From: Verrucomicrobiia bacterium
Lineage (GTDB): Bacteria > Verrucomicrobiota > Verrucomicrobiia > Limisphaerales > DSYF01
DNA length: 41,309 nucleotides
Direction: 5' to 3'
Assembly (NCBI GenBank): GCA_035765895.1
Contig: DASTWL010000023.1
Span: forward strand, 1 to 41,309
Every line of letters begins with the position of its first letter. Position 1 is the first letter of the stretch. This document shows, one piece after another, positions 25,137-34,429 of the stretch. Under the pieces are notes generated by a model that was not told where the DNA came from, ran no database searches, and saw nothing but the letters and a program-made list of their open reading frames with translations. A program made the position numbers and the translations under genes.

Positions 25137-26576
25137 TCAAATTCCGTCGGGGCCGGGCGCGCGTCCGGTGGCGGGATGCAGCCCAAATTGCACCAGTTTG
25201 GCGTGCATCGTGATGCGCGTGACGCCGAGCCAGCGCGCCGCGCGGGCCTGGTTGCCGCCCGCCCGCTGGATGGCCCGGGCGAACAGCTCCCGTTCCACCG
25301 CCGCGGTCACCTGCGCATGCACGCCGGTCGATTCGCCCCGCTGCGCGGCGTCGAGAATCTGGTCCAGCCATTCGCCGAGGGATGGCTTGAGCAGCGCCGG
25401 CCCGCCGGTGTTGGCGGCAAGCGTGGCCCGCACATGGTCCGGCGAAATGGTGTAGCCCTGCGCCGCCAGCAGCACCTTGCGCACGACGTTTTCCAGTTCG
25501 CGCACGTTGCCGGGCCAGTTTTGCTGTTGCAGACAGGTCATCGCTTCGGGGTGAATCGAGGGGGCGGCCGTGCCGAGGGCCGGCCCGTGACGGGCCAGAA
25601 AGTAGCGGACCAGTTCCGGGATGTCCTCACGCCGGTGCCGCAAGGCCGGCAGCGTGAGCACGACGACGTTGAGGCGGTAGAACAAATCCTGCCGGAATGT
25701 GCCCGCTGCCATCGCGGCCTCCAAATCGCGATGCGTGGCGGCAATGACGCGGACATCCACCGGAATGATTTCCTTCCCGCCCAGCCGCCGCAGCGTGCGT
25801 TCCTGCAGCACGCGGAGCAATTTCACCTGCGTGCCCAACGTCATGTCGCCAATCTCGTCCAAAAAAATCGTGCCGCCGCCGGCCTGTTCAAACCGGCCAA
25901 TCCGCCGCGCGTCGGCGCCCGTGAACGCCCCGCGCTCGTGCCCGAACAATTCGCTCTCGAGCAGCGTCTCCGGGATGGCTGCGCAGTTGATGGTGATGAA
26001 CGGCGCGGGCGCGCGGTCGCTGTGTTGATACAGGGCGCGGGCGATGAGTTCCTTGCCCGTGCCGGTCTCGCCGCGAATGAGCACATCCACCGGCCGCGCG
26101 GCGACGCGGCCGATTTCCTTGTAGATGTCCTGCATCGCCGGGCTGCGCCCGACCAGCGCCTCGCGCCGGGCGGCCGGTTCACCCAACGCCACGGGCTCCG
26201 ACAGGCGCCGGTGACTGTCAGCCGCCTTGCGGATCAATTCCAGCAGGCGCGGCGGGTCGAAGGGTTTGAGCAGGTAATCGTAGGCGCCCCACTTCATCGC
26301 CTCGATGGCGGTGTCGGTGGTGCCAAAGGCCGTGGCCAGAATGATCGGCAGCCGGGGCTGGACGGCGTGCAACTGGCGCACGATCTCCAGCCCGTTCGTG
26401 CCGGGCACCTTCAAATCGGTCACCAGCACATCGAACGCCTCCGCCTGCGCGCGCGCCAGTCCGGCGTCGCCGCGCCGCTCCACGACCAGTTCGCAGCCCT
26501 CGCCAGCCAGCAGGCGGCTCAACGTGTCCGTGATGCCGGCGTCGTCTTCGATGAGCAGAATGCGCGTGGGCGTCAT
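25137..26576 (-). CDS. NtrC-like sigma-54-dependent response regulator
   Basis: The 479-residue protein has three domains. A receiver (1-118) has phosphoacceptor D54 in VTDLKVPG and K104 in LLKPF. The AAA+ sigma-54 activator domain (about 140-370) has Walker A GETGTGKE (169-176), the sigma-54 contact loop GAFTGA (216-221) and Walker B GGTIFLDEIGD. A Fis-type helix-turn-helix lies at the C-terminus (AIQRAGGNQARAARWLGVTR). It activates sigma-54 RNA polymerase when phosphorylated by the kinase whose gene overlaps it by ATGA. A sigma-54 promoter match at 28050 makes the nearby receiver genes likely targets. Confidence 0.95.
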   Translation of the reverse strand: MTPTRILLIEDDAGITDTLSRLLAGEGCELVVERRGDAGLARAQAEAFDVLVTDLKVPGTNGLEIVRQLHAVQPRLPIILATAFGTTDTAIEAMKWGAYDYLLKPFDPPRLLELIRKAADSHRRLSEPVALGEPAARREALVGRSPAMQDIYKEIGRVAARPVDVLIRGETGTGKELIARALYQHSDRAPAPFITINCAAIPETLLESELFGHERGAFTGADARRIGRFEQAGGGTIFLDEIGDMTLGTQVKLLRVLQERTLRRLGGKEIIPVDVRVIAATHRDLEAAMAAGTFRQDLFYRLNVVVLTLPALRHRREDIPELVRYFLARHGPALGTAAPSIHPEAMTCLQQQNWPGNVRELENVVRKVLLAAQGYTISPDHVRATLAANTGGPALLKPSLGEWLDQILDAAQRGESTGVHAQVTAAVERELFARAIQRAGGNQARAARWLGVTRITMHAKLVQFGLHPATGRAPGPDGI

Positions 26577-27964
26577 GCGGTGGCTTGGGGCAGGATGATG
26601 CCGAACGTGGTGCCGCGACCGGGCCAGCTCTGATATTGAAGCGCGCCGCCGTGTTTTTCGATGATGCCCGCGGCGATCGACAGGCCGAGGCCCGTGCCGG
26701 TTTCCTTGGTGGTGAAGAACGGGTCAAACAAGCGTTGCTGCACTTCCGGCGACATGCCTTTGCCGTTGTCCGAAACTTCGAGGACCGCCGCGGCCTGCTC
26801 GCGCCCGCCCAGGCGTTTGCGCGTGGCCCGGATCGTGAGCCGGACCGCGCCATTCTCCCCGATGGCATCCGCGGCGTTTTGAATGAGGTTGATCAAAACC
26901 TGCTTGATCTGCGCGGCGTCAGCCTGGACCCGGAGGGCGGGCGTGTCGGCCACGGTCAACTGGATGTTGTGCCGCGCCAGTTGCGGCGTCAGCAGCGTCC
27001 CAACTTCCCGCAGGAGCGCCACCGCATCGACCTCCGTCCGCCGCGGTTCGGTGGGGCGCGCAAACTGAAGGAACTCGTTGACGATGCGTTCGAGCCGCAG
27101 AATCTCCCGCTCGACGAGCTGGCTGTCGGCATGTTCACGCGAACCCGGCGGGAACTGTTTTTGCTGGATGAACAACGCCGCCTTGATGGCCGTCAGCGGG
27201 TTGCGGATTTCGTGGGCCACGCCCGCCGCCAGCAGGCCGAGGGAGGCAAGTTTTTCGCGGCGTTCCAGCAGCGACTGGCTCTCCACCAGTTTCAGGCGCA
27301 GGGGCGCGATCAGGTGGCGGTAAACGCCGAAGGCGAGAATGGCGCCCAACAGAAACAAGCCGCCGAGCGACACCAGCACCAGGGTGTGCAACTGGCCGAT
27401 GGTCTCGTTCGCCTGCCGGACCAGCCCGCTGCGGGACTGGTAATGCGCCTGCGCGAGCGCCTGCCCCAGTTGCGAGAGGTGGTCCGATTCGCGCATGAGC
27501 CCGGCGTATTCGGCCAGCGTGGCGCTTTGCTGGCCGAGCGACTCCAACCGCGTCACCAGCACGCGGGCCACGGCGAGATACTTGTCGTAGGCGGTGTCGA
27601 TTTGCTGCATGAGCGATTGTTCCGCGGTCGTCAGCAGCTTCGGCTTCTGCTGGTCAATCCACCGGTCAAGCTCATGACTGGTCTTGTCGAACCACCGCAA
27701 GTCGGCGGCGTCATGACCGGCGCCGTAACGGTAAAGGGACATGTTCAGCTCGCGGACGTAATCCGCAAACTCGGCGGCGATGCGGAAACTCTCGGAATCC
27801 ACCTGGCCCAGTTGCCCGCGCAACTTCGCGGCGCGGCCCTGGGATGCAAATGTCAGTCCGCCAACCGCAAGTCCCATCAACGCAATCCCCGCGACGAGAA
27901 TCAGGAACCGCATCTTGACCGTCGCGTCACTGGGTGAGAGCTCAGTTGCTTGCCGCCGCAGCAT
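26573..27964 (-). CDS. NtrB-type membrane sensor histidine kinase
   Basis: The 463-residue product has two membrane helices (about 19-38, RFLILVAGIALMGLAVG; and about 192-213, LHTLVLVSLGGLFLLGAIL). They flank a helical periplasmic sensor region of about 150 residues (four-helix-bundle type, rich in Q and L). A HisKA domain follows, with H251 in VAHEIRNPLTAI, and an HATPase with N box (LINLIQNAADAI), DNGKGMS and GTGLGLSIA. It should phosphorylate the overlapping NtrC-like regulator. An internal ATG 51 bases in (MRFLILV) is an alternative start. The ligand is not evident. Confidence 0.93.
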   Translation of the reverse strand: MLRRQATELSPSDATVKMRFLILVAGIALMGLAVGGLTFASQGRAAKLRGQLGQVDSESFRIAAEFADYVRELNMSLYRYGAGHDAADLRWFDKTSHELDRWIDQQKPKLLTTAEQSLMQQIDTAYDKYLAVARVLVTRLESLGQQSATLAEYAGLMRESDHLSQLGQALAQAHYQSRSGLVRQANETIGQLHTLVLVSLGGLFLLGAILAFGVYRHLIAPLRLKLVESQSLLERREKLASLGLLAAGVAHEIRNPLTAIKAALFIQQKQFPPGSREHADSQLVEREILRLERIVNEFLQFARPTEPRRTEVDAVALLREVGTLLTPQLARHNIQLTVADTPALRVQADAAQIKQVLINLIQNAADAIGENGAVRLTIRATRKRLGGREQAAAVLEVSDNGKGMSPEVQQRLFDPFFTTKETGTGLGLSIAAGIIEKHGGALQYQSWPGRGTTFGIILPQATA

Positions 27965-28049
27965 ACTGACTAGACACCCGGACGGCCGGGACGTTCGGTT
28001 TGCGCCGCAAAAGCCGGTGAAACCCGCGGCTTCCGCGCCTCCGGCCGGC

Positions 28050-28065
28050 TGGCACGCGTCCCGCT
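28050..28065 (+). promoter_or_regulatory. Candidate sigma-54 promoter of the receiver genes
   Basis: TGGCACGCGTCCCGCT matches the -24 element TGGCACG exactly and keeps the essential GC of the -12 element at the correct spacing; the two bases before it are CC rather than TT. It is on the plus strand 53 bases ahead of the start at 28119. The adjacent operon encodes a GAFTGA-type sigma-54 activator, which supports the call. Confidence 0.55.
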
Positions 28066-29155: not shown

Positions 29156-29283
29156 CCCGGATGCCGCAGCCGACCCGCGTGCCGCCCGGCGTCCGCCAGT
29201 TGCGAAAAACGTCCGCCGCCGCTGGCGCAATGTCACCCGACGTGTGATAGGTTGTGGCGAAGGGAAACAACCACGTGCGCACC

Positions 29284-29739
29284 ATGAACCAAAACCCCGA
29301 GGCCAAATCGGCGCCCGCCACCGAACCGTGGAAGACCGTGCTGCTCTACGGCGACGCCGAATCCGGTTCGTCCGCGCACCACCTGCTGACGCGGGCGGCG
29401 GCCCGCACCGAGTCCTCCGCCACGTGGGAGTCCGACTTGTGGCGCTTCGACGTAATGCAGGAAAAGCCCGTGGCCGCCCAGGCGTTGAAACAAGCGCAGA
29501 ACGCCGATTTGATCATGCTCTCCGCCAAGGCGATTGAGGAGCCACCGGCCTGGCTCATGGAGTGGCTGGGTGAATGGGCGGTGAACCGCACGGTGCCGGA
29601 TGCCGCCGTGGCGGCGTGGTGCCGTCATGCCGATGATCAACCCGCGACGCCCGGCGTCGAGAAACTCCGTCAGTTTGCCCAAGCGCACGGGCTCGCTTTT
29701 CTTTGCGCCAACGACTACCGCCAACCGTCCGTGGTTTGA
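29284..29739 (+). CDS. Unknown protein linked to receiver genes
   Basis: The 151-residue product is soluble, without signal peptide. The core looks like a small alpha/beta domain: WKTVLLYGDAESGSSAHHLL, a segment WRFDVMQEKPVAAQAL, then NADLIMLSAKAIEEPPAWLM and a C-terminal GLAFLCANDYR. The alternation of hydrophobic strands (TVLLYGD, DLIMLSAK, LAFLCAND) suggests a Rossmann-like or receiver-like fold without an obvious phosphorylation site. A GTG at 29254 could extend it by 10 residues. It follows the two receivers by 128 bases in the same direction. I do not recognise the family. Confidence 0.65.
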   Translation: MNQNPEAKSAPATEPWKTVLLYGDAESGSSAHHLLTRAAARTESSATWESDLWRFDVMQEKPVAAQALKQAQNADLIMLSAKAIEEPPAWLMEWLGEWAVNRTVPDAAVAAWCRHADDQPATPGVEKLRQFAQAHGLAFLCANDYRQPSVV

Positions 29740-29767: not shown

Positions 29768-32700
29768 TCAACGCCGCCGGCTCACCTTCTCCCGGTCGGC
29801 CTTTGCCGTTTGGGCAAACAATTCCTGCTGGTGCCAGCCGCCGCCCAGGGCTTTGATGAGTTGCACGGAAGCAATCAACCGCTGCCCCACAAGTTGCGCG
29901 TTGGCGCGCTCGGCCAGGAGGGCTTCCCGGCTGGCGTCCACCACGTCGAGATAACTCACGATGCCGGACCGGTAGCGATCCGCCGCCAGTTCCGCCGCTC
30001 GCCGGGCGCTGTCCACGGCGCGCTGCTGCGCCTCCGCCTGTTCCGCCAGATGACGAATGCCGGACAGGCTGTTCTCCACGTCGCCAAACGCCACGAGCAC
30101 CTGCTGACGATAGCGGGCCACGGCTTCCTGATACGCTGCTTGTGAGCGTTTGTAGTTGGCGCGGTTGCGCCCGCCCGCGAAAAGCGGCAACGACAGGCTG
30201 GGGCCAATCGACCACGTGTGGCTGTCCCAATTGAACAAATTGTCCACGTCGCCGCTGAGATAGCCGCCGGAACCGGTGAGCGTCAGCACCGGAAAGAAGG
30301 CCGCCTTGGCCACACCAATGCGCGCATTGGCCGAGGCAAGCTGCCGTTCGGCTTCGGCCACATCGGGCCGGCGTTCGAGCAGTTCGGCGGGCAGGCCGGC
30401 CGGAATCTCCGGCGGCCGGGGATGCCAGGTGTTCGTGCCCCGCGACGGCAGGGCAAAGGCCACGGGATTGGCGCCCACCAGAATCGCGATGGCATTCTCC
30501 AGTTCCGTGCGCCGCCGCGCGAGCGAAGCGGCCTCGGCCTGGGTCGTCGCCAGTTCCGTTTCGGCACGGGCCACGTCCAGTTCATTGCCAATGCCGCCTT
30601 CAAACCGGCTGCGCACGAGCTGCAATTGTTGTTGGCGCAAATCAACGGTGGCCTGGACGGTGGCGATCTCGGCGTCCAGCGCGCGCAACGCGAAGTAGTT
30701 TTGCGCCACGTCGGATTGCAGGGTCAGCAACACGCCATAGAACCCCGCCAGGGACGATTGCGCCTCGGCCCGCGCACTTTCAAAACCGCGGCGCACGCGG
30801 CCCCACAAATCCACCTCGTAACTCAGGTCCAACGGTGCGTGAAACGTGTTTGCGGTCAGGGTGCCAAAGCCTGGCTCCTGGTTGGGCGAGTAACGCTGAC
30901 GCGTCAGACTCGGATCGAGAGTCAAGCTCGGCAGCAAATCGCCCCGGGCCACCCGGGCGGTTGCCCGCGCCTGATCCACCCGCGCCACCGCGGCCTTGAG
31001 AGCTTGATTTGACTCCGCGGCCTGCAATTCGAGCCGGTTCAAATCCGTGTCGTCGTAAACTTCCCACCAGCTTCCCTTGGGCAGCGTGTCCAGTGGGTGC
31101 CCTTCCTGCCACGTCCCCACAGCGGCCTCCTTGTATTGGCCGGGCGCCGCGTTCGTAGGCGTTTGATAATCCGGCCCCACCGTCAACAGACCCGCACGGG
31201 CCGGGCTGGCGGCAAGCATCAATCCCAGGGCCACCACGGTCGCCGTCGCGCCGGTGGCACCCAGCGCCGGACCTTTGGCCGCCGGAGCCGGCGCGGGTTT
31301 TTTCTTGGTGCTGAGTTTCATCAGCGAAACATAGAAGACCGGCGTGAGGAAGAGGCCGAATACGGTCACGCCAATCATGCCGGCGAACACCGCCACACCC
31401 ATGGCCTGGCGCATTTCGGCGCCGGCGCCGTGGGATTTCACGAGCGGAAACACGCCCGCGATGAATGCGATGGAGGTCATCAGAATCGGCCGCAAGCGCA
31501 GCCGGCAGGCCTCGATGGCCGCGTCAAACGGGGACAGCCCTTCGTCCTGTTTGTGCTTGGCAAACTCCACGATGAGGATGGCGTTCTTGCACGCGAGCCC
31601 GACCAGCACAATCAGCCCGATCTGCGTAAAGATGTTGTTGTCTCCGCCGAACAGCCAGACACCCGTGATGGCGAACAACAGGCACATCGGCACGATGAGA
31701 ATGATGGCCAACGGCAGCCGGAAGCTCTCGTATTGCGCGGCGAGCACGAGAAACACCAGCAACAAACAGAGCGGATAAACATAGACCGCCGTGTTGCCGG
31801 CCAGGATGCGCTGGTAGGTCAATTCGGTCCACTCCGTCTTCATGCCTTTCGGCAGCGTCTGGTCGGCGATCCGGGTGATGAGTTCCTCCGCCTGGCCGGA
31901 ACTGTATCCCGGCGCCGGGCCGCCATTGATTTCCGCGGCCGGGTAGCCGTTGTAACGCATCGCCCGGTCAGGCCCGTGTGTTTCGGTCACCTTCACAATG
32001 GCACCCAATGGCACCATCTGCCCGCTGGCATTGCGCGTTTTGAGACGCGTGACGTCCTCCACCCGGTCCCGGAAACGTGCGTCAGCCTGCGCCACGACTT
32101 GATACGTCCGGCCAAACCGGTTGAAGTCGTTCACGTAGAGCGAGCCGAGGTAAATCTGCATCGTCTCAAACAGATTTTGCAGCGGCACGCCCTGCTGCTT
32201 GGCCTTCACACGGTCAATGTCAGCATCCAGTTGCGGCACGTTCACGGTGAAGGTCGAGAATACTCCAGCCAACCCCGGTGTCTGGTAACTTTTGCCGATG
32301 ATTTGCTGCACGTTTTGATACAGCGCGTCGTAGCCCAGGTCCGCGCGGTCCTCGACGTAAAACTTGAATCCCCCAATCGTCCCCAGCCCCTGCACGGGCG
32401 GCGGCGGCACCGTCAGGATGAACGCCTCCTGAATCCCGCCGAATTGCCGGTTGAGCGCCTGGGCAATCGCCGGCCCGCTCAACGCATGGCCCGGGCGGTC
32501 CTCGAACGGCTTCAACGTGAAGAACACGATGCCCGCGTTGGGCGCCACGCTGAATCCGCTGATGCTCAGGCCGGGAAACGCCACCGCGCTTTGCACGCCA
32601 GGCTGCTTCAGGCCAATGTCCGTCATGTGACGAATCACGGCTTCGGTCCGGTCCAGCGACGCGCCATCCGGCAACTGGGCAAAAGCGACCAGATATTGCT

Positions 32701-34429
32701 TGTCCTGCGTGGGCACGAATCCGGTGGGAACCTTGTTGAAGCCCCAACCTGTCAGCACAACCAGCCCGGCATACACGACCAGCGCCACGGCGCTCTTCCG
32801 CAGAATGGAACCCACACCCACGGCGTAACGGTTGCCCGACCAGGCGAAGAGGCGGTTGAAAGGACGGAAGAACCAGCCCAGCGTCCGGTCCATGCCGCGC
32901 GCAAACCAGTCCTTCGGCGCATGGTGATCCTTGAGCAACACAGCGCACAGCGCGGGCGAAAGCGTCAGTGAGTTGACAGCCGAAATCACGGTCGAAATCG
33001 CGATGGTGATGGCGAACTGCTTGTAAAACTGGCCGGTCAAGCCGCTGATGAACGCCGTGGGCACGAACACGGCGCACAGGACGAGCGCCGTGGCGATGAT
33101 CGGACTGGTGACCTCGCTCATGGCGCGTTTGGCCGCTTCCACGGGCGACAAGCCGAGCGCGATGTTGCGCTCCACGTTTTCGACCACCACGATGGCATCA
33201 TCCACCACGATGCCGATGGCGAGCACCAGCCCGAACAACGACAGGTTGTTGATCGAAAAGCCCAGCGCGAGCATCACTGCAAAGGTTCCGACGAGCGACA
33301 CCGGCACCGCCGCCAGCGGAATGATCGAGGCGCGCCACGTCTGGAGAAAGAGAATGACCACGAGCACCACCAGCACAATCGCCTCGACCAGCGTGTGCAC
33401 GACCGCCTCGATGGAATGCCGCACGAACACCGTCGGGTCATACACCACGTCGTAGTCCAGGCCGTCCGGAAAGTTTTTCTTCAACTCCTCCATCGTGCGG
33501 CGGACGTTGGCCGAAAGTTCAAGCGCGTTGGCACCGGGCGTCTGAAAGATCGGCAGCGCCACCGCGGTCCGGTTGTTCAACAGCGACCGCAACGCGTAGC
33601 TGTCCGCGCTGAGTTCGACGCGCGCCACGTCCTTGAGCAGCGTCTTTTCGCCATTGGGACCGGTCTTCACGATGATCTGGCCGAATTCATCGGCGGAAAC
33701 CAGACGGCCCTTGGCGTTGATCTGCATTTCGAAGTTCACCGGCTCGCCGACCGGCTGCTGCCCGATGGCCCCGGCCGCCACCTGCACGTTCTGCTCGCGA
33801 ATCGCGCTGACCACGTCACTGGCCGTGAGATTGCGCGCCGCGATTTTATCCGGGTTGAGCCAGATGCGCATCGCATAGTCACCCGAGCCAAACACGCGCA
33901 CCTCGCCCGCGCCGGGAATGCGCGCCAGCACGTCCTTCACCTGCAACGTGGCGTAATTGCGGATGTAAACGGCATCGTAGCGGTTGTTCGGTGAGAAGAG
34001 GTGCACCACCATCGTGAGGTCGGGCGACTGCTTGGTGGTCGTAACGCCAAGGCGCCGGACTTCCTCGGGCAGTTTGGGCAGCGCCTGCGACACGCGGTTC
34101 TGCACCTGGACCTGCGCCTTGTCCACATCCGTCCCGAGCTTGAACGTGATGGTCAGCGTCATCACACCGTCACCGGTGGATTGCGAAAACATGTAGAGCG
34201 AATCCTCGACGCCGTTGATCGCCTGCTCGAGCGGCGAAGCGACCGTTTCCGCAATGGTCTTGGGGTTGGCGCCCGGATACGTGGCGCGCACGACCACCGT
34301 GGGCGGAACGACTTCGGGATACTCGCTGATGGGCAGCTTCCACATGGCGATGGCGCCCACGAGGAAGATGAGGATCGAAAGCACGCCGGCAAAAATCGGC
34401 CGGCGAATGAAAAAGTGTGAAAAATTCAT
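29768..34429 (-). CDS. Fused RND efflux pump and outer-membrane factor
   Basis: This uninterrupted frame encodes 1553 residues. Residues 1-1036 are a complete HAE1 RND pump of normal length: helix 1 after MNFSHFFIRRPIFAGVL, proton-relay D410 and D411 in AIGIVVDDAIVVVENV, and the helix 10 lysine in VGLACKNAILIVEFA. Residues 1037-1553 are a complete NodT/OprM-type factor (VGPDYQTP; LLERRPDVAEAERQLASANA; LSGIRHLAEQAEAQQRAVDS). The joint has a basic stretch (STKKKPAPAPAAK), a hydrophobic segment (about 1057-1074) and a PARA cleavage-like motif near 1079, i.e. an internal signal peptide. Methionine 1037 could also be an internal start. The pump works with the adaptor encoded 60 bases upstream. The products could be one chain, a cleaved pair, or two separately initiated proteins. 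Confidence 0.93.
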   Translation of the reverse strand: MNFSHFFIRRPIFAGVLSILIFLVGAIAMWKLPISEYPEVVPPTVVVRATYPGANPKTIAETVASPLEQAINGVEDSLYMFSQSTGDGVMTLTITFKLGTDVDKAQVQVQNRVSQALPKLPEEVRRLGVTTTKQSPDLTMVVHLFSPNNRYDAVYIRNYATLQVKDVLARIPGAGEVRVFGSGDYAMRIWLNPDKIAARNLTASDVVSAIREQNVQVAAGAIGQQPVGEPVNFEMQINAKGRLVSADEFGQIIVKTGPNGEKTLLKDVARVELSADSYALRSLLNNRTAVALPIFQTPGANALELSANVRRTMEELKKNFPDGLDYDVVYDPTVFVRHSIEAVVHTLVEAIVLVVLVVILFLQTWRASIIPLAAVPVSLVGTFAVMLALGFSINNLSLFGLVLAIGIVVDDAIVVVENVERNIALGLSPVEAAKRAMSEVTSPIIATALVLCAVFVPTAFISGLTGQFYKQFAITIAISTVISAVNSLTLSPALCAVLLKDHHAPKDWFARGMDRTLGWFFRPFNRLFAWSGNRYAVGVGSILRKSAVALVVYAGLVVLTGWGFNKVPTGFVPTQDKQYLVAFAQLPDGASLDRTEAVIRHMTDIGLKQPGVQSAVAFPGLSISGFSVAPNAGIVFFTLKPFEDRPGHALSGPAIAQALNRQFGGIQEAFILTVPPPPVQGLGTIGGFKFYVEDRADLGYDALYQNVQQIIGKSYQTPGLAGVFSTFTVNVPQLDADIDRVKAKQQGVPLQNLFETMQIYLGSLYVNDFNRFGRTYQVVAQADARFRDRVEDVTRLKTRNASGQMVPLGAIVKVTETHGPDRAMRYNGYPAAEINGGPAPGYSSGQAEELITRIADQTLPKGMKTEWTELTYQRILAGNTAVYVYPLCLLLVFLVLAAQYESFRLPLAIILIVPMCLLFAITGVWLFGGDNNIFTQIGLIVLVGLACKNAILIVEFAKHKQDEGLSPFDAAIEACRLRLRPILMTSIAFIAGVFPLVKSHGAGAEMRQAMGVAVFAGMIGVTVFGLFLTPVFYVSLMKLSTKKKPAPAPAAKGPALGATGATATVVALGLMLAASPARAGLLTVGPDYQTPTNAAPGQYKEAAVGTWQEGHPLDTLPKGSWWEVYDDTDLNRLELQAAESNQALKAAVARVDQARATARVARGDLLPSLTLDPSLTRQRYSPNQEPGFGTLTANTFHAPLDLSYEVDLWGRVRRGFESARAEAQSSLAGFYGVLLTLQSDVAQNYFALRALDAEIATVQATVDLRQQQLQLVRSRFEGGIGNELDVARAETELATTQAEAASLARRRTELENAIAILVGANPVAFALPSRGTNTWHPRPPEIPAGLPAELLERRPDVAEAERQLASANARIGVAKAAFFPVLTLTGSGGYLSGDVDNLFNWDSHTWSIGPSLSLPLFAGGRNRANYKRSQAAYQEAVARYRQQVLVAFGDVENSLSGIRHLAEQAEAQQRAVDSARRAAELAADRYRSGIVSYLDVVDASREALLAERANAQLVGQRLIASVQLIKALGGGWHQQELFAQTAKADREKVSRRR

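Follow-up and report, generated by a model that had tools for sequence, protein, structure and literature searches.

A sensor–regulator pair of a Verrucomicrobiia bacterium appears to switch on receivers matched to its own kinase through a sigma-54-type promoter

In a Verrucomicrobiia bacterium, small receiver proteins matched to the kinase of a sensor–regulator pair appear to be produced at the command of that pair, from a sigma-54-type promoter, and the recurrence of this wiring in many relatives suggests a feedback built into signalling. The elements concerned (Table 1) lie in the window, by which is meant the whole stretch of 41,309 nucleotides that was analysed. An earlier note on this DNA had predicted a circuit in which the activator drives expression of extra receivers that may draw phosphate from the same kinase. 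Comparison among related loci now lends this idea support, through a promoter site kept at 63 of 71 loci, an enhancer-like motif upstream of it, a divergent layout at 54 of 71 and a residue code that the receivers seem to share with the activator.

Table 1. Features of the module, with positions in the window
Feature	Position	Strand	Basis or remark
NtrC-type sigma-54 activator, 479 aa, GAFTGA	25137..26576	-	Response_reg, Sigma54_activat, HTH_8
Histidine kinase	26573..27913	-	HisKA + HATPase_c
Degenerate two-site enhancer-like motif	27937..27980	+	Starts 113 bases before TGG; in phase with most orthologs
-24/-12 (sigma-54-type) promoter, TGGCACGCGTCCCGCT	28050..28065	+	Sequence; kept in 63/71 orthologous loci
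RR1, receiver-only, 189 aa	28119..28688	+	Response_reg E 1.2e-23, sole Pfam domain
RR2, receiver-only, 156 aa	28685..29155	+	Response_reg E 1.1e-23, sole Pfam domain
161-aa protein, no known family	29254..29739	+	98 bases behind RR2

The activator combines a receiver, a sigma-54 AAA+ domain with GAFTGA and a Fis-type helix-turn-helix, as is typical of NtrC-type enhancer-binding proteins, and the divergent operon with a GAFTGA activator described in the earlier note is borne out by the translation and by the Sigma54_activat match (E 1.2e-72). For the kinase, a start at 27913 (446 aa) is likelier than one at 27964 (463 aa), because the coding score favours it and because 27964 falls inside the enhancer motif. 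RR1 and RR2 each consist of a receiver with its phosphorylation residues, as in single-domain response regulators, and the RR2 start overlaps the RR1 stop by four bases. Whether the 161-aa protein belongs to the receiver operon is uncertain; it matches no Pfam or NCBIfam family, and of 196 genomes of the order, 73 encode a related protein (E <= 0.001). Across the receiver family, the phospho-Asp and the Lys are present in 89 of 89 proteins and the Thr in 88 of 89. The D+2 and T+2 residues, positions that are treated in the literature (PMC8510515), are mostly hydrophilic in receivers and activators alike; such kinetic residues were considered as proof of a fast sink and set aside as not discriminating.

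The promoter match was confirmed as a TGGCACG with a correctly spaced GC ahead of two receiver genes: GG at 28051-28052 and GC at 28063-28064 stand in the canonical 12-base register, with TGGCAC intact and CC replacing TT before the -12 GC. The match had earlier been titled as facing the NtrC-like regulator genes, an ambiguous wording: the match is directed to the receiver genes and points away from the kinase/activator operon. RR1 begins 53 bases past the promoter end, and transcription is expected to start at about 28076, given the usual 12-base distance behind the GC. Taken alone, the match is no better than chance. The window holds seven matches with two or fewer mismatches against 11.59 expected, and three to TGGCAYN7GCW against 2.91 expected; genome-wide (4.6 Mb in 96 contigs), TGGCAYN7GCT gives 68 matches against 149 for the reversed pattern, and a control with one extra N gives 66 against 137. 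The genome does encode RpoN, with one Sigma54_DBD match (E 6.7e-58). Definition of a regulon by consensus was tried and rejected (the 68 against 149, and likewise 60 against 121); consensus sites are not enriched genome-wide, and no regulon is therefore claimed. The first -24/-12 weight matrix was built on a consensus sequence.

Because single-site counts lay at or below their controls, orthologous loci were gathered. A search with RR1 of 293 genomes of the order returned matches at E <= 1e-27 in 65, own genome included. By protein comparison, all five of the nearest named relatives belong to Verrucomicrobiota. Sixty regions from this list, 12 gathered earlier and the window made up 73 loci, in 71 of which a receiver was called; kinase or activator genes lie divergently upstream in 54 of the 71 (two of the 54 with the activator only). 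TGGCAY-N7-GCW occurs on the receiver strand in 63 of the 71, compared with 0-4 loci for wrong spacers of 3-6 and 8-12 bases on that strand and a mean of 1.46 loci (maximum 6) in 100 dinucleotide shuffles. Four of the eight loci that lack an exact site are one base off (G086a, G225b, G191, G108), and another has a region of only 82 bases; L062, a locus of divergent layout outside the 71, has no -24/-12 site. The TT ahead of the GC is not conserved across loci. On the strength of the 63 loci against the shuffle mean, the promoter is near certain, by conservation, to be real, and a chance match, to which the window and genome counts taken singly would give room, is extremely improbable. A kinase-facing -24/-12 site was found in only one of the 71 loci, so the circuit looks one-way. 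In a few receiver leaders (L046, L056, L151, L052 and L054), a stem CCTGTGG...CCACAGG stands just before the receiver gene and is followed in three of the five by a T run, like a terminator or attenuator; Rfam gave nothing at gathering score on five loci, and the stem leaders had no Rfam match.

The stretches of 250 bases that precede the 63 sites contain a two-site motif, approximately GTG..AAG..CTTACCAC, which is repeated in weaker form some 21 bases further along; it was scored with the own genome of each locus and near-identical sites left out. It beats all 40 mononucleotide shuffles in 50 of the 63 loci, a score with some circularity because the seed was picked by eye from the same sequences. 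Forty of these 50 motifs start 112-117 bases before the TGG; among the remaining ten, nine are offset from that position by near whole helical turns. The window's own copy is weak and degenerate, though in phase, with a leave-own-genome-out score of 6.1, where its 40 shuffles reach 2.5 at most. The nearest in-frame kinase ATG is within five bases of the motif in 18 of 35 good-motif loci, a distance that is biased in that the nearest start was the one picked; because the kinase ATG sits near the motif, bound activator might limit the kinase operon too. Applied to 102 sites of the genome (with flanks for part of the GCA sites), the enhancer matrix scored two above 10: the window's, itself part of the training set, and another that precedes a glnK-like gene. 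At L032 (G000:C8:76795-77240), two -24/-12-type sites lie ahead of glnK-amtB-like genes, with a short, apparently decayed glnK-like start between them and an enhancer-like dyad near the second.

Control of the promoter by the neighbouring activator is very likely. It could instead be that the sigma-54 promoter is real and driven by another activator, with the divergent neighbour incidental, since the genome has 12 places with similarity to the activator at E <= 1e-60 and the window's enhancer copy is degenerate; set against the divergent kinase or activator genes of 54 loci and the shared specificity residues discussed below, this is quite improbable.

The specificity residues were compared at five positions of receiver helix alpha1, which we take to correspond to OmpR 15, 16, 19, 22 and 23. 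Kinase specificity is described as lying mostly on one face of this helix (PMC2991266). Across 35 loci, coupling between kinase and receiver at these positions was equalled by 10 of 2000 entropy-matched columns and by none of 60 permuted pairings, and the kinase–activator pair, a positive control, was equalled by none of 2000 columns and none of 60 pairings. These statistics control in part for the relatedness of the loci, and the final register was set from the acid pair: the right register scores 0.0315, nearly equalled by wrong registers at +3 (0.0289) and +4 (0.0275), and with the register off by one the kinase–receiver covariation was not significant. The match between activator and receiver is clearest at the OmpR-22 position, where identity is 0.59 against 0.20 for mismatched loci (32 loci), rank 1 of 110 matched columns; of the other four positions, three rank 3, 4 and 7 and the last 34. 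The activator and the receiver carry the same residue there in 23 of 39 loci, against 8.1 expected and in none of 20000 permutations as often, and the same charge class in 35 of 39; when one locus per family and residue is kept, 14-16 of 28 are identical. Second receivers agree with the activator in five of nine cases (1.0 expected), and in the window the activator, RR1 and RR2 all have Arg. Paralogous modules within each of four genomes (G208, G086, G013, G225) differ from one another in a matched way, with some matched pairs being non-identical (Asp/Ala in G208a, Gln/Ala in G013a, Glu/Asp in G086a), and in G129 both modules agree with each other. Contig C28 of the window's genome carries a second module, in which the residues, as read by eye, are Lys for the activator and Arg for a receiver, equal in charge and not identical. 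The earlier suggestion of a shared kinase thus gains support, in the matching alpha1 residue and its rank, with the +3 and +4 registers close behind in the kinase comparison, and the receivers are likely to be served by the kinase of the activator.

What the receivers do once phosphorylated can be read in more than one way. They may be outputs, phosphorylated by the same kinase and made from the same promoter, that bind a partner and form a post-transcriptional arm. The Trp of DGW (84 of 85) and the Gln of TARPNQ (79 of 85) are near-invariant, which hints at a specific partner, a universal-stress-protein/receiver fusion exists in one genome (G148), and 11 of 71 loci have RND-efflux-type genes no more than 4.5 kb away on the same strand, with stress genes elsewhere: genes of Hsp20, ribosome-hibernation, glycogen-binding and P-type-ATPase-like type, in 2-5 loci each, named by Pfam on one representative each and, for the ATPase, by inspection only. 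Efflux-type genes follow two of the three kinases that most resemble the window's (those of G268, G290 and G101a), and in the window an RND operon adjoins the module on the opposite strand. These family-specific residues, the fusion and the efflux and stress neighbours are compatible with an effector role and speak against simple competition. However, no conserved partner gene was found, with no non-receiver neighbour family in more than 10 of the 71 loci, and a matched kinase code would be needed for a phosphate sink too. Altogether, a role as outputs is a serious possibility with roughly one chance in three.

Several observations concern the neighbouring genes themselves. In the window, a single frame of 1553 aa (29768-34429, minus strand) joins an AcrB-type RND pump (residues 3-1035) to an outer-membrane efflux protein (1346-1529), and is either a natural pump–channel fusion or a frame error. 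The fusion in G148 (L185) is a 465-aa protein with a receiver behind universal-stress-protein domains. A text pattern for universal stress proteins gave no match, despite the presence of Pfam-named domains of that kind among the proteins searched, and was set aside. The second kinase–activator pair of the window's genome (L128/L129; G000:C28:6001-38000) has -24/-12-type sites on both sides, with further sites TGGCAYG...CAGCTAA near genes for universal stress proteins, a Na/H exchanger and GreA-like, ferritin-like and GrpE proteins.

The preferred reading is that the receivers are competing phosphoryl acceptors. In the proposed circuit, the membrane kinase would phosphorylate the NtrC-type activator, which would bind the two-site enhancer, some 113 bases ahead of the -24 element, and fire the promoter together with sigma-54 polymerase to make RR1 and RR2. 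Because their kinase-contact code equals that of the activator's receiver, RR1 and RR2 would trade phosphoryl groups with this kinase too, and as they accumulate would compete with the activator, giving a damped or time-limited response. The simplest reading is such competition between the receivers and their activator, which would give negative feedback. The promoter, the enhancer motif, the divergent layout, the intact receiver chemistry and the shared code find support in the comparison of sequences; that transcription depends on sigma-54, that the kinase passes phosphate to the receivers and that the feedback is negative are what we infer. Negative feedback by phosphate draw is somewhat likelier than the best single rival, and the whole one-way sigma-54 circuit with receivers as competing acceptors has about an even chance of being right.

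Among known systems, ZraSR-zraP pairs a membrane kinase with an NtrC-type activator, and the sigma-54 target gene that lies divergent from them encodes a periplasmic protein. The module is like it in its divergent layout and differs in that its targets are receivers, and the window's proteins do not reach the cut-off for ZraS (196.9 bits, 479 required) or for ZraR (396.7 bits, 760 required). The activator's best NCBIfam match is ntrC, at 487.5 bits under a cut-off of 558.6, and, unlike in NtrBC, the kinase's best match is AtoS, likewise under cut-off; the activator also scores under the NCBIfam cut-off for the PrsR equivalog (375.2 against 502.6 bits). Feedback of the same general form as proposed here is described for Osp of Rhodobacter sphaeroides, a single-domain receiver under the pathway's own regulator that feeds back on CckA, but there the control is by CtrA, the kinase is a hybrid and inhibition by Osp reportedly works through binding (PMC9430884); the present module has a divergent kinase–activator operon, a sigma-54-type promoter and often two receivers. 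In Caulobacter crescentus, MrrA and LovK/LovR are presented as systems whose single-domain receivers act as phosphoryl hub or sink in the stress response, within a multi-kinase network whose abstract mentions neither sigma-54 nor a divergent cassette (PMC5964349). Following these precedents, the receivers of the module might bind and inhibit or reverse the kinase, as Osp does by direct binding while being made under the same pathway (PMC9430884), or serve in a phosphorelay, with MrrA as an example of a receiver hub (PMC5964349), so that the main effect would not be simple competition. Nearly all receivers keep their phosphorylation residues, of which pure binding needs none, and such a role is unlikely, at perhaps one chance in ten. 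In the portions of the open-licence literature consulted on sigma-54 in Verrucomicrobia, on receivers or sinks with sigma-54 and on Limisphaerales two-component systems, the module is undescribed.

Receiver-only proteins that fit the kinase of the very NtrC-type system by which they are transcribed would be a variation on known designs. In its broadest form, the idea is of a widespread, duplicated cassette in which an NtrC-type system makes dedicated phosphoryl acceptors through a one-way sigma-54 promoter, each co-evolved with the kinase of its module, giving insulated adaptation of efflux and stress responses by acceptors that have no DNA-binding output; this we hold tentatively, at a little under even chances. 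If true, the module would be a compact and testable circuit by which the response of a two-component system is kept in bounds by the system itself. Natural replicates are offered by paralogous modules that share a genome and carry different kinase-contact residues, and a working promoter and enhancer consensus is gained for a little-studied group.
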